Assembly (NCBI GenBank): GCA_021775875.1
Contig: JAJFHA010000007.1
Coordinates: forward strand, 62,001 to 126,000
DNA from: Hyphomicrobiales bacterium
GTDB taxonomy: Bacteria > Pseudomonadota > Alphaproteobacteria > Rhizobiales > NORP267
Direction: 5' to 3'
DNA length: 64,000 nucleotides
Positions 47,765 to 53,202 of the stretch are shown here, piece by piece. How positions within the stretch are numbered: the stretch's first letter is position 1; the number at the start of each line of letters is the position of its first letter. Position numbers and translations under genes: made by a program. The notes beneath the pieces were generated by a model. That model was not told where the DNA came from. It worked only from the letters and a program-made list of their open reading frames with translations, and made no database searches.

Positions 47765-48424
47765 GTGATTCGCTTCGAAAATGTTGGCCTGCGTTACGGC
47801 ATGGGGCCGGAAATTTTGCGCAACATCTCATTCCATGTGGCGCCAGGTTCTTTTCATTTCCTGACCGGACCGTCTGGTGCCGGTAAAACTACATTGTTGC
47901 GCCTGCTCTTCATGGCTCTCAAACCAACCCGTGGCCTCGTCAATTTATTCGGTCAGGATGTAGCCTCGCTGTCGTCAACTGATCTGCCTGAATTACGACG
48001 CAAGGTTGGGGTCGTATTTCAGGATTTCAGGTTACTGAACCATTTGACCACCTTTGAAAATGTCGCCCTTCCCCTGCGCGCCACCGAACAACCTGAACAG
48101 GATTATCGGGCCAACGTGGTTGAATTGCTGAAATGGGTCGGGCTTGGTGATCGTATGCGAGCCAGCCCGGAGGTTTTGTCGGGCGGTGAAAAACAACGCG
48201 CCGCGATCGCCCGTGCCGTAGTCGGCCAGCCTCAACTTTTGCTCGCCGATGAACCAACCGGCAATGTGGACCCGAGCATGGCCAAACGGCTGCTCGGTCT
48301 GTTTGAAGAACTCAACAAGCTCGGCACCACAGTTATTATCGCCACCCATGATGTTGAATTGATGCGCTTGTCCGATGCCCCCCACATGATCCTCGAAGAT
48401 GGTCATTTAGGGATCGAATCCTGA
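47765..48424 (+). CDS. ftsE: Cell division ATP-binding protein FtsE
   Basis: MIRFENVGLRYG, FLTGPSGAGKTTLLRLL (Walker A), LSGGEKQRAAIARAVVGQPQLLLADEPTGNVD. Confidence 0.95.
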   Translation: MIRFENVGLRYGMGPEILRNISFHVAPGSFHFLTGPSGAGKTTLLRLLFMALKPTRGLVNLFGQDVASLSSTDLPELRRKVGVVFQDFRLLNHLTTFENVALPLRATEQPEQDYRANVVELLKWVGLGDRMRASPEVLSGGEKQRAAIARAVVGQPQLLLADEPTGNVDPSMAKRLLGLFEELNKLGTTVIIATHDVELMRLSDAPHMILEDGHLGIES

Positions 48425-48432
48425 AAAACGCC

Positions 48433-49440
48433 ATGAGCCGCAAACCACAAAAACCCGTCATCCCTCCCGGTAAACCGAAATCGCGTCCAAAAGCCACACC
48501 TGCACCTGCCGGTTGGTTACAGCGTTATTTTGACCGTATCACCCATAAATCAACACCGATTGTACCGGTTGAAAATGTAATTGGCCGGGCTTTGGTTCTG
48601 GTCACTGCGATCATGTGTTTTTTAGCCTGTCTGGCGCTTGGTACGGCTTGGGCCGTCCACCGGGCCTCCGTTGCATGGACAAGCGAGGCCGCCAGCGAGC
48701 TGACTCTACAGATCAAGCCTGTTGAGGGCCTCAATATGACAGACGAAGTCACCAAGGCGATGCGCCATCTGGGAAATGTGAACGGTGTTGTACGCGCCGA
48801 ACCGATTTCAAACGAAGAGACCCGGAAATTGCTTGAACCATGGCTGGGAGCTGAACTGAATTTCGAGGAACTTCCGGTGCCGCAATTGATTACGGTCGAA
48901 ATTGATCGCCGCAACCCTCCAAATTTGCAGGTTTTGGCATCAGACCTGATCGCCATTGTCCCAGGCGCCAGGCTTGACGATCATCGGGTTTGGCAAAATC
49001 AGGTCCGGTCGGCGGCAAACTGGATCAAATGGACAAGTTTCCTGGTCCTCATTCTGATGTTAGGGGCGACAATTGCAATCATTGTCTTCGCGACCCAAGG
49101 TGCCATGTCATCAAACCGCGATGTGGTGAATGTGCTGCATTTGGTTGGCGCCCGCGACAAATTTATTGTTCGGGAATTTGAGCGTCATTTCCTGGTGCTT
49201 GGCTTGAAAGGCGGACTTGCCGGCGGATTGCTGGCGGCGACTGCGTTCATTGTGGCCCGTTACGCGCTTGAGCAAATCGCCCCGCGCAGCCTGGACGGCG
49301 AGTTCAACAACCTCATTCACGCGGTTTCAATTGGATGGAGTGGTTTTGCCGCTATCGCCGGAATTGTTGCGTTTCTCGCAATCCTTACTTCACGCACCTC
49401 CAGATATACAGTTTATCGATACCTCAAAAGTGTTGAGTAA
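48433..49440 (+). CDS. ftsX: Cell division protein FtsX
   Basis: FtsX topology; NVLHLVGARDKFIVREFERHFLVLGLKGG; follows ftsE. Confidence 0.92.
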   Translation: MSRKPQKPVIPPGKPKSRPKATPAPAGWLQRYFDRITHKSTPIVPVENVIGRALVLVTAIMCFLACLALGTAWAVHRASVAWTSEAASELTLQIKPVEGLNMTDEVTKAMRHLGNVNGVVRAEPISNEETRKLLEPWLGAELNFEELPVPQLITVEIDRRNPPNLQVLASDLIAIVPGARLDDHRVWQNQVRSAANWIKWTSFLVLILMLGATIAIIVFATQGAMSSNRDVVNVLHLVGARDKFIVREFERHFLVLGLKGGLAGGLLAATAFIVARYALEQIAPRSLDGEFNNLIHAVSIGWSGFAAIAGIVAFLAILTSRTSRYTVYRYLKSVE

Positions 49441-49514: not shown

Positions 49515-50192
49515 ATGCAAAAATTGTCGAATTCAGAACCGGATAACCCGGCTACACCAGAAAAACAGCGCACCGGTCCCTACCGGACTTTGCGTACATT
49601 CGCGTTTTTGTGCGGGCTGTTAGTGGCTTTGTTTCTCGGCGGGTTTCTTATTTTCATAAATGAAATCCCGAAAACCGGAACAGACAATTTACCTCAGGCT
49701 GATGGGATTGTAGCATTAACAGGGGCCGCCGACAGGGTCGAAATCGCGGTCGGATTGTTACATGCAGGCAAAGGTAGAAGGCTTCTTATATCAGGCGTAA
49801 ATACAGCAACTACCAGAGGTGCGTTGGGCCGCTCGATGCCGCAATTTGCAGACCTGTTCGAATGCTGTATCGATCTCGACTATCAGGCCCTCAATACAGT
49901 CGGCAATGCCGATGAGACCCAAAAATGGGTCGAGGATCAGGGTTTCTCGTCGGTCATTATAGTTACCAGTAATTATCATATGCCACGCAGCCTTATCGAA
50001 ATTGAACGGGCCATGCCAAATATCATGTTCATTCCTTATCCAGTTGTGACCGAACGGGTAAAAATTGATCAATGGTGGTCGAACCCTGGATCGCTAAAAT
50101 TGCTCGCGTCCGAATATCTGAAATATCTCGAAGCAATTCTGCGCAGCAATTTTCATAGTGCTACGGCAACAATTATGGGCAGTGCGTATTAA
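49515..50192 (+). CDS. YdcF/SanA-like DUF218 family protein
   Basis: DGIVALTGAADRVEIAVGLLHAGKGRRLLISGVN, SSVIIVTSNYHMPRSLIEI. Confidence 0.92.
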   Translation: MQKLSNSEPDNPATPEKQRTGPYRTLRTFAFLCGLLVALFLGGFLIFINEIPKTGTDNLPQADGIVALTGAADRVEIAVGLLHAGKGRRLLISGVNTATTRGALGRSMPQFADLFECCIDLDYQALNTVGNADETQKWVEDQGFSSVIIVTSNYHMPRSLIEIERAMPNIMFIPYPVVTERVKIDQWWSNPGSLKLLASEYLKYLEAILRSNFHSATATIMGSAY

Positions 50193-50938
50193 TGGCGCCG
50201 GGCAACGGGATAGAACCATCTTCCGCCGTCCGGGCGTTTGCGTTCAATATTATTTTCTACCTCAATTTGGTCAGCTTTATTTTGGCGGCCATGCCTCTGC
50301 TCATTTTTCCAAGACAATATATCAGGGCCTTCGTCCACTTGTGGTCCCACACAAGCCTGTGGTGGTTGAAGGTTCTGACCGGAACAAATTATGAGATCAG
50401 GGGACAGCAGAATATTCCGCAAGGGGCGCTTCTGGTTGCCGCCAAGCATCAGTCTTTTTGGGAGACATTTGCCCTGATGCCGTTATTTGCTGATCCGGTC
50501 ATTGTTTTGAAGCGTGAATTGACATGGATCCCTCTATTGGGATGGATTCTGCGCAAATATGGCTGCATTCCGGTTGATCGCAATGGTGCTTCAAAAGCGC
50601 TCCGCGCCATGCTTGAACAGGCGCGGCTGTCGGCAAAGGAAAACCGCCAAATCATCATTTTCCCGGAAGGAACCCGCCAGGACCCGGATGCGGCACCAGA
50701 CTATAAACCCGGGGTCGGCCTGCTCTATGTGGATCTGAAAATTCCCTGCCTGCCAATAGCTCTGAATTCTGGGTTATACTGGCCGCGCCGTCGCCCGGAA
50801 CGCCATCCTGGCACTATCCTTGTTGATATTTTGTCCCCTATCCCCCCCGGTCTCACGCGAAAACGGTTCTTGCCCCGTATCGAAGCCGAAATTGAAACCG
50901 CCACCGCCAAGCTGGTTGTTGAAGCGCGGGGCGCATAG
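50192..50938 (+). CDS. plsC: 1-acyl-sn-glycerol-3-phosphate acyltransferase
   Basis: AAKHQSFWETF (HX4D-like), PVDRNGASKALRAML, IIIFPEGTRQDPDAAPDYKPGVG. Confidence 0.92.
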   Translation: MAPGNGIEPSSAVRAFAFNIIFYLNLVSFILAAMPLLIFPRQYIRAFVHLWSHTSLWWLKVLTGTNYEIRGQQNIPQGALLVAAKHQSFWETFALMPLFADPVIVLKRELTWIPLLGWILRKYGCIPVDRNGASKALRAMLEQARLSAKENRQIIIFPEGTRQDPDAAPDYKPGVGLLYVDLKIPCLPIALNSGLYWPRRRPERHPGTILVDILSPIPPGLTRKRFLPRIEAEIETATAKLVVEARGA

Positions 50939-51031
50939 TCTGTCAGGGCAGACGGGACAATCGAAATGTACAACATAACCTGCACCACATCAGGCAATGT
51001 TAAAAAATTTTAGTTGACATTTCTGATTTTT

Positions 51032-51046
51032 GTTCTAGTTTTGTTC
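51032..51046 (+). promoter_or_regulatory. LexA-type SOS box (alphaproteobacterial GTTC-N7-GTTC)
   Basis: GTTCTAGTTTTGTTC overlapping the -10 of a TTGACA (51014-51019) promoter. Confidence 0.75.
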
Positions 51047-51048
51047 TC

Positions 51049-51498
51049 ATGGTGATACAAGAACAAAAAATGAACGAACAACCCGCATTCCTGTCCGATC
51101 TAGGCCCATCCAGCCTTGGTCAGCCCAATCTCGGATTATATGATGTGGGCTATTGCTATTGGTTCGGGGCCTCGGGCCGGAAATATGTCCATTCGGTTTA
51201 TCGCCTGGATGCGTGGCCCGGTCATGTAGACGCCAATATTATGCTGGTGCGTAATTGCCCAACCGAAGGCCGACAAATTCTCTGGGCTGGTCAGGCCGGC
51301 AAGGTTCCAGGACAATTGTCCAAACAGGGCATTCTCTCGTGGGCCCGTGCAAATAACGCCAATGAAGTGCATGTGCATCTGCTCGGTGGGTCAGCAAATA
51401 TGCGCGACCAAATCACCAAAGACCTGCAACGGATTGCCCGCATTGGGTCTGCCGGTCTTGTGCGCGATATCAGCCTTGCAGACTCAGGCGGCGTTTAA
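51049..51498 (+). CDS. Hypothetical protein with SOS-box-containing promoter
   Basis: 149 aa (or 142 aa from ATG 51070); LGLYDVGYCYWFGASGRKYVHSVYRLDAWPGHVDANIMLVRNC; no family recognised. Confidence 0.75.
   Translation: MVIQEQKMNEQPAFLSDLGPSSLGQPNLGLYDVGYCYWFGASGRKYVHSVYRLDAWPGHVDANIMLVRNCPTEGRQILWAGQAGKVPGQLSKQGILSWARANNANEVHVHLLGGSANMRDQITKDLQRIARIGSAGLVRDISLADSGGV
51061..51075 (-). promoter_or_regulatory. Second LexA-type SOS box, inverted
   Basis: GAACAAAAAATGAAC = minus-strand GTTCATTTTTTGTTC, overlapping the ATG at 51070. Confidence 0.55.
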
Positions 51499-52017
51499 AG
51501 CAAGCTGCGCGGCCAGTTTTTCCAGTTGGCGATCGCGAATATCCATCTCTTTCAAACACCCGACCGTCTGGTGTACATATTCTTCATTGTCACCTGACTT
51601 GCCAATGTTCCCGCGGATGCGCGCAACTTGTTCTTCAATTGTCAGACGACCGGCAAATTGTTCGTGGCGAGGATCAGCCATATAGCAAAGCGCTGATACT
51701 TTTTTACGCGGACTTTCCAGCAGATGGATTTGCCGCCACCGCTCAAGATAGACCAGCGTCACCTGTTCCCTTTCGCGCAGATAGGCAATCACGCTATCAC
51801 GGTCAATTCCATTTACCCTGAACGCCATTCCGCGACACGCACCGCCGGCCGCAAGTCCTAACACCAACCCTGGTCTGGAGGGCGTACCGCGATGATGGTA
51901 GCTGTGAACACATAACGCCCGGTGTGCACCCGATAATTTGGCCTGCGCACTTTTTGCGAACGGAAATCCTGGTCGCCACATCAGCGAGCCATAGCCAAAT
52001 ACCCAGAAATCATCCAT
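51484..52017 (-). CDS. Gamma-glutamylcyclotransferase (ChaC-like)
   Basis: DDFWVFGYGSLMWRPGFPF, CVHSYHHRGTPSRPGLVLGLAAGGACRGMAFRV; start revised to 52017. Confidence 0.93.
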   Translation of the reverse strand: MDDFWVFGYGSLMWRPGFPFAKSAQAKLSGAHRALCVHSYHHRGTPSRPGLVLGLAAGGACRGMAFRVNGIDRDSVIAYLREREQVTLVYLERWRQIHLLESPRKKVSALCYMADPRHEQFAGRLTIEEQVARIRGNIGKSGDNEEYVHQTVGCLKEMDIRDRQLEKLAAQLALNAA

Positions 52018-52059
52018 AACAACCGCCAGAATTTCAAATTCCAGCCCGATTAACAGGGC

Positions 52060-53202
52060 TTGCGATTGAACGCAACAACAGGTCCAGGAACCAACAAAAT
52101 CAGCACCCGACAACAATCACCCGGCCGACGCCCGTGGCGCATGGCTCTGCCGCTGGGGCTGGTAATTGTCCTGTCGATTGGCTGGGTGGCTTATTGGTTT
52201 ATTGCCAGCCAGGTAGCAAATGCGGGGATCGATCGGTTCATCCGGCAAAATTTAGCGCGCGGCATCGAAATCACCTGCGCTGAGCGAACCCTCGACGGAT
52301 TCCCGTTCCGCTTTATCGTGACCTGTCGCAATACTCGGATTGCGGTCAACCGATCCGGGCGCGTTGTTATAATTGATCTACCGAAATTGCGCGGCGTTGT
52401 TCAGGCCTATAATCCCACACATATAATTGCCGAACCATCTGGTCCGATCGACATAGCTGTTCGCCAACCGGGCCAGGCAGACCGGTTTGCCCGTGCGAGT
52501 TGGGCGGAAATGCGTTTCAGCCTGCGCCTTTCCGGATTTAATTTTTCCAGTGGCGACATGACCGCGACAGAGATGAGTTTCTGGCGCGGAGCGTCAAGCG
52601 CGGCCCTAACCAGCACTCCTTTTCTTGCAATAAAGAATTACGAAGGTCATATCCGTCAGGCCATATCCGGTTCAGGTCAAAGCCCCTTGCCGGATTTTGA
52701 TTTCGCGGCCAACGCTACTGATCTCGTTCACCAGCCCATCACGCCGGGAGGTGATCCGATTGCCATCAATGATATTTCGACAATCGGTACGGTTTTTGAT
52801 CTGCCATTGCGAGAAATCGGAGACCGGCCTAATTTTTTCCGTGCGTGGCAACAGGCTGGCGGCAAGCTGCAAATCGACAAATTATGGATCGACGGCCCGG
52901 ATACCGCTGCCAACATTGCCGGGTCGCTGACGCTTACCCCAACCGGGCGGCCCCAGGGCGCAATCGCAATTGATATTGTCGACATCGAACAATTATCCCG
53001 GCACATCGACAACGCTTCAACCGGATCAGGCTTGAATATCGTCAGTTTCATGCTTCAGATGGTCCGCAACATAGCAACGCCATCGACAGTTGATGGCACG
53101 CCATCGGTGCGGCTCGATATCGATATCGACGACGGCATCATCAAGGTTCAAGGCACCCCGGTCACACGAATCGACCCGCTCTTCCCAAATCCTCGAAGTT
53201 GA
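52060..53202 (+). CDS. DUF2125 domain-containing protein
   Basis: LGLVIVLSIGWVAYWFIASQVANAGIDRFIRQNLARGIEITCAERTLDGFPFRFIVTC typical of DUF2125. Confidence 0.85.
   Translation: MRLNATTGPGTNKISTRQQSPGRRPWRMALPLGLVIVLSIGWVAYWFIASQVANAGIDRFIRQNLARGIEITCAERTLDGFPFRFIVTCRNTRIAVNRSGRVVIIDLPKLRGVVQAYNPTHIIAEPSGPIDIAVRQPGQADRFARASWAEMRFSLRLSGFNFSSGDMTATEMSFWRGASSAALTSTPFLAIKNYEGHIRQAISGSGQSPLPDFDFAANATDLVHQPITPGGDPIAINDISTIGTVFDLPLREIGDRPNFFRAWQQAGGKLQIDKLWIDGPDTAANIAGSLTLTPTGRPQGAIAIDIVDIEQLSRHIDNASTGSGLNIVSFMLQMVRNIATPSTVDGTPSVRLDIDIDDGIIKVQGTPVTRIDPLFPNPRS

Follow-up and report, generated by a model that had tools for sequence, protein, structure and literature searches.

LexA control of an uncharacterised gene at positions 51049-51498 of the window (the whole 64-kb stretch of Hyphomicrobiales DNA analysed here) is strongly supported by the sequence of its promoter and of its orthologues' promoters. 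We consider it probable that this is a LexA-repressed SOS gene and that its product is most likely a repair accessory with a GIY-YIG fold that does not itself cleave DNA. The features of the locus are the following:

50192-50938, forward strand: plsC, a 1-acyl-glycerol-3-phosphate acyltransferase-like gene, upstream neighbour (by inspection; conserved setting).
51014-51019, forward strand: -35 element TTGACA (from the sequence and the spacing in orthologues).
51032-51046, forward strand: predicted LexA operator 1 (SOS box, "box 1"), GTTCTAGTTTTGTTC, conserved in orthologues and overlapping the -10 element TAGTTT at 51036-51041.
51049-51498, forward strand: predicted SOS-controlled gene starting at ATG 51049 and encoding a putative degenerate GIY-YIG-fold protein of 149 aa.
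51061-51075, reverse strand: predicted inverted LexA operator 2 ("box 2"), GTTCATTTTTTGTTC, inside codons 5-9 of the gene.
51484-52116, reverse strand: ChaC-like gamma-glutamylcyclotransferase gene, convergent downstream neighbour (by inspection; conserved setting).

An earlier note on this DNA had read two GTTC-N7-GTTC sites at the start of the gene, the first of them over the -10 element of a TTGACA promoter. Both sites are exactly where it placed them and on the strands it gave, TAGTTT does lie inside box 1, and the two are the sole exact matches in the 64-kb window, paired at 29 bp in opposed orientation. The same note had box 2 overlapping a start codon at 51070, and here our reading differs. 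A start at 51070, which would give a protein of 142 aa, was rejected on the geometry of box and start in orthologues; this geometry favours ATG 51049, which stands 2 nt past box 1 and gives 149 aa. With this start, box 2 lies within the coding region, over codons 5-9, and not across the start codon. The 3′ end of the ChaC-like gene overlaps the SOS-box gene by 15 bp. Comparison with G002 gave a dN of 0.04 vs. a dS of 0.39; by this measure the gene is under purifying selection.

The bare motif is no more frequent than expected by chance. The window holds 2 exact sites, vs. 1.67 expected, and allowing one mismatch revealed no excess there (39 found vs. 46 expected). In the whole genome, 79 exact sites were found compared to 88 for a reversed control, and we therefore dropped the presence of the motif alone as evidence. 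In a subset of the genomic boxes, the right half of the spacer is T-rich (…TTTGTTC), and both sites at the window gene belong to this subset. Sites of this class adjoin ssb and uvrA (L009), recA (L013), imuA-imuB (L014), the DNA polymerase III alpha gene dnaE (L010) and a PA0069 radical-SAM gene (L011), and one lies in a prophage region (L012). It is this T-rich spacer class, together with the 29-bp pairing and the conservation in orthologues described below, that sets the window boxes above chance.

The machinery of the SOS response is complete in this genome. A single LexA scored above the family cut-off (G000:C3:230302-230493, 60 bits; TIGR00498, 184 bits), its identity being backed by both PF01726 and TIGR00498. 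The lexA gene has a GTTC-N7-GTTC site of its own, GTTCTGCTTGTGTTC, 85 nt upstream of its start.

Some other boxes of this genome deserve mention in their own right. The one in the prophage region (L012:2385-2399; G000:C12:101884-101898) is identical to box 2 and lies beside a gene for a TP901-1-type tail protein. At L011:2123-2137 (G000:C10:117122-117136), a T-rich LexA-type box stands at the start of the PA0069-family radical-SAM gene, with a glycosyltransferase gene divergent on its other side; the radical-SAM gene is a candidate SOS gene on this criterion. Lastly, a C-5 cytosine DNA methyltransferase gene is preceded at 44 nt by GTTCCTATAATGTTC (L015:1881-1895; G000:C15:42880-42894). This may be an SOS-linked methylase, or the box there may be a chance match.

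To place the gene among its relatives, we used a protein profile search. The gene was present in 222/397 sampled Hyphomicrobiales genomes, nearly always in single copy, and in 2 of about 190 other genomes of the class. Its bearers include Hyphomicrobium, Methyloceanibacter, Aestuariivirga, Bosea, Ensifer and Beijerinckiaceae, as well as two MAGs from the same genus as the window. The usual neighbours of the orthologues are plsC upstream and/or chaC, convergent, downstream.

The earlier note had asked that orthologues be checked for conserved boxes, and the boxes are indeed conserved. Within 280 bp around the domain start, an exact box was present at the promoter in 84 of the 128 unique testable orthologues (a count inflated by near-duplicate sequences), vs. 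0, 1, 0, 1 and 2 for five letter-permuted motifs. Mapped on the tree, the box label required 6 changes, compared to 37 for shuffled labels. The box consensus is GTTCTAnTTTTGTTC, with a spacer consensus of TAnTTTT. For the 76 orthologues whose box is in forward orientation, TTGA[CA] precedes the box by 18-20 nt in 54 cases. In 33 of the same 76, the first in-frame start lies 1-2 nt past the box.

These data bear on the reading that the boxes are chance matches and that the gene is outside SOS control in the window organism. The chance-level frequency of the bare motif in both genome and window is what this reading would predict. However, the contrast with the permuted motifs at orthologous promoters, the fixed spacing to the -35 element and the ATG, and a spacer class in common with recA, ssb and imuA make it very improbable. 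We therefore retain LexA control, as the earlier note had proposed for this uncharacterised gene, a claim now backed by conservation of the operator across genomes and by the complete SOS machinery. No box was found for 45/129 orthologues, mostly in Hyphomicrobium and its allies. LexA is present in most of the box-less genomes checked, so it is the operator that is missing there and not the regulator.

With a start 1-2 nt after the box, there is no space for a ribosome-binding site. The mRNAs of orthologues with this layout, that of the window gene included, are thus probably leaderless.

Box 2 has the same offset in all three examined genomes of the window's genus. The four degenerate codons beneath it do not differ among these genomes, while G000 and G001 agree in only 42/82 comparable codons. 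This is suggestive of constraint on operator 2 but not conclusive. Two opposed boxes also occur in some distant orthologues (Bosea, Beijerinckiaceae). At L118, L119, L120, L121 and L191 (Beijerinckiaceae, Methylobacterium and related loci), opposed promoter boxes have their centres 17-18 bp apart, a double-operator layout that differs from the 29 bp seen in the window genus.

The earlier note recognised no family for the product, and Pfam and NCBIfam likewise assign none: no match exceeded the cut-off in either library, PF01541 gave no match, and nothing significant was found among PDB-sequence profiles. A match to DUF6610 (E 0.044) was disregarded. Even relatives with an intact active site stay below the PF01541 cut-off (17.3 bits for Ensifer L116 vs. 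a cut-off of 22.6).

Two AlphaFold2 models, built from alignments of 29 and 75 rows, reached a mean pLDDT of 73-74, with about 90 in the core. Along the chain, the models show a hairpin and two paired strands, then helix, strand and helix. GIY-YIG proteins filled the top eight places of the VIA second look in one run and the top ten in the other (Z 4.0-6.9); the next, unrelated row in the first of these runs scored 2.8. All of these values are below 8, and the likeness is thus moderate. Among the entries, a plant glutaredoxin (2lwf) matches through its N-terminal GIY-YIG-fold domain (Z 6.7-6.9) and Thermotoga UvrC (1ycz) through its GIY-YIG domain (Z up to 6.0; 75-76 residues superposed at an rmsd of 2.4-2.8 Å); R.Eco29KI scores Z 4.0. 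Foldseek alone gave nothing significant against PDB and BFVD (best GIY-YIG entry E 1.1, prob 0.41). Alignment by hhalign to canonical GIY-YIG profiles matched both motif strands in the right register, but the score was weak (probability 4.6 vs. at most 0.6 for shuffled columns).

Homology to GIY-YIG proteins is also found at the level of sequence. The window protein matches WP_231146028 of Bradyrhizobium, annotated 'GIY-YIG nuclease family', with an E of 4e-4. The Ensifer relative L116 matches the same protein at 1e-23 and is 39% identical to another member of the family. Taken with the models, these matches suggest that the window protein, which appears to be a divergent member, has the GIY-YIG fold.

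Several relatives are of note for what they keep. By inspection, L116:3614-4021 (Ensifer adhaerens) has a complete GIY…YIG…R…E…N set and an upstream GTTC-N7-GTTC site, GTTCCGCTAATGTTC. The set is also complete, again by inspection, in L220:2432-2857 (Bradyrhizobium barranii plasmid), which lies between transposase genes and has no box. L251, a rare relative outside the Hyphomicrobiales, keeps both the GIY and YIG tyrosines (AVYVLV...PIYVGQ). Searches of phage and viral sequences with an intact relative as query returned no relatives.

The fold also bears on the functions that had been suggested. Of the options in the earlier note, the evidence for a degenerate GIY-YIG fold favours a nucleic-acid or repair factor over a division inhibitor or a toxin. 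An SOS-induced inhibitor of cell division or growth, SulA/SidA/DidA-like, would fit the predicted SOS control of the gene, and the ftsE- and ftsX-like genes at 47765-49440 of the window would on this reading reflect its role. We judge it improbable: the ftsEX genes are three genes away and have no box, the conserved partners are instead plsC and chaC, and the fold evidence favours GIY-YIG. Moreover, the window product reads as a soluble protein of 149 aa, unlike SidA and DidA, which are small membrane proteins. No SulA-type family match was obtained in NCBIfam, whose library includes SulA models.

A GIY-YIG-fold repair protein, our preferred reading, could still be a nuclease, and we therefore looked at the catalytic positions. 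In an ungapped reading against the Bradyrhizobium protein L220, the GIY Tyr, YIG Tyr, helix Arg, Glu and Asn correspond to I64, W79, Q89, T123 and A135 of the window protein; all five appear to have been replaced. The YIG tyrosine is almost gone family-wide. The GIY tyrosine is kept in 33/45 box-less vs. 25/84 box-bearing members, and the catalytic glutamate in 33/45 vs. 24/84, both counts being uncorrected for kinship. Other residues are near-invariant in the family (G40, S42, G43, Y46, E106, H108, H110 and D125), within family-wide motifs consisting of a W-x-G-x-SG-x-x-Y hairpin (W38-G40-S42-G43-Y46), an E-x-H-x-H strand and one Asp. Loss of the classical residues alongside such conservation suggests that selection keeps something besides the classical nuclease site.

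One could propose that this something is a shifted or new active site, formed by E106/H108/H110/D125 and the W38-G40-S42-G43-Y46 hairpin, the gene then encoding an active LexA-controlled nuclease (Cho/UvrC-like or COG2827-like). The near-invariance of E106, H108, H110, D125, G40, S42 and Y46 where classical residues are lost is compatible with this idea, and the small GIY-YIG protein CC3518 of Caulobacter is reported to have an SOS box (PMC1839093). Nevertheless, we find an active enzyme unlikely. Nearly every member is without the YIG tyrosine, none of the five classical residues is left in the window protein, and the GIY tyrosine and the glutamate are each missing from most box-bearing members. 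In addition, the E-x-H-x-H motif and the Asp also occur in L116 and L220, alongside the classical site, and hence need not be catalytic. With the catalytic residues replaced and the hairpin, E-x-H-x-H and Asp conserved, the product is most likely a non-cleaving accessory factor. A role in repair is inferred from the fold and from the company of other SOS genes.

We propose the following model for the gene. LexA bound to box 1 would cover the -10 element and the start region and so block RNA polymerase; in the window genus, the inverted box 2, 29 bp downstream, would add to this block. Upon DNA damage, RecA-stimulated cleavage of LexA would free the promoter, and a leaderless mRNA would begin at or beside ATG 51049. 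The resulting small GIY-YIG-fold protein would, without cleaving, bind a repair partner or DNA that is damaged or branched.

How such a gene may have arisen is a more tentative matter. We see it as a reasonable possibility, short of a probable one, that an ancestral LexA-controlled GIY-YIG nuclease gave rise to a non-cleaving protein that has a new conserved surface and is expressed from a leaderless LexA promoter, the result being an order-specific family of fixed synteny. Its members would then be SOS pseudo-nucleases, acting either on damaged DNA (protecting, marking or channelling it) or on active UvrC-type nucleases, as regulators.

Hyphomicrobiales include nitrogen fixers, methylotrophs and pathogens, and most of what is known of their damage response comes from a few models. 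With the gene described here, the SOS regulon of the order would gain a widespread member that is so far uncharacterised. Its operator predicts induction by damage, and its protein predicts binding of DNA without cleavage. If these predictions are true, this would be a pseudo-nuclease serving the SOS response, and an operator lying 1-2 nt before the start would be a clean natural case of a LexA-controlled leaderless mRNA. We found no description of the gene family in the literature searched, though it may already figure among the hypothetical SOS genes of alphaproteobacterial LexA regulon papers such as Erill 2004 and da Rocha 2008.

The closest solved folds in the second look, 1ycz and 2lwf, have 6-8% sequence identity to the window protein, and the Thermotoga UvrC domain is catalytic, unlike the window protein as we read it. 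WP_231146028, encoded on the Bradyrhizobium barranii plasmid pCC829_3, shares the W-x-G-x-SG hairpin and the H-x-H strand with the window protein but, unlike it, keeps all the classical catalytic residues; the surrounding 5.3-kb stretch has no exact GTTC-N7-GTTC. Canonical GIY-YIG proteins are encoded separately in the window genome, with no exact box adjoining.

Among characterised SOS genes, E. coli Cho (UvrC homologue 2) is SOS-induced and has the GIY-YIG fold (PMC1839093). Cho has further regions and is an active nuclease that makes 3′ incisions, whereas the window protein consists of the domain alone and has no catalytic set. C. crescentus CC3518, a UvrC-like protein of COG2827, is like the window protein a small alphaproteobacterial protein of the same superfamily with a predicted LexA operator. 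However, CC3518 belongs to the ordinary UvrC-N-terminal-like group, while the window family carries an additional N-terminal hairpin that is conserved, falls below the Pfam cut-off, occurs largely in a different order and appears to lack the catalytic residues. Together, the reported SOS box of CC3518 and the damage-inducible Cho provide a precedent for the control of a GIY-YIG protein by LexA.
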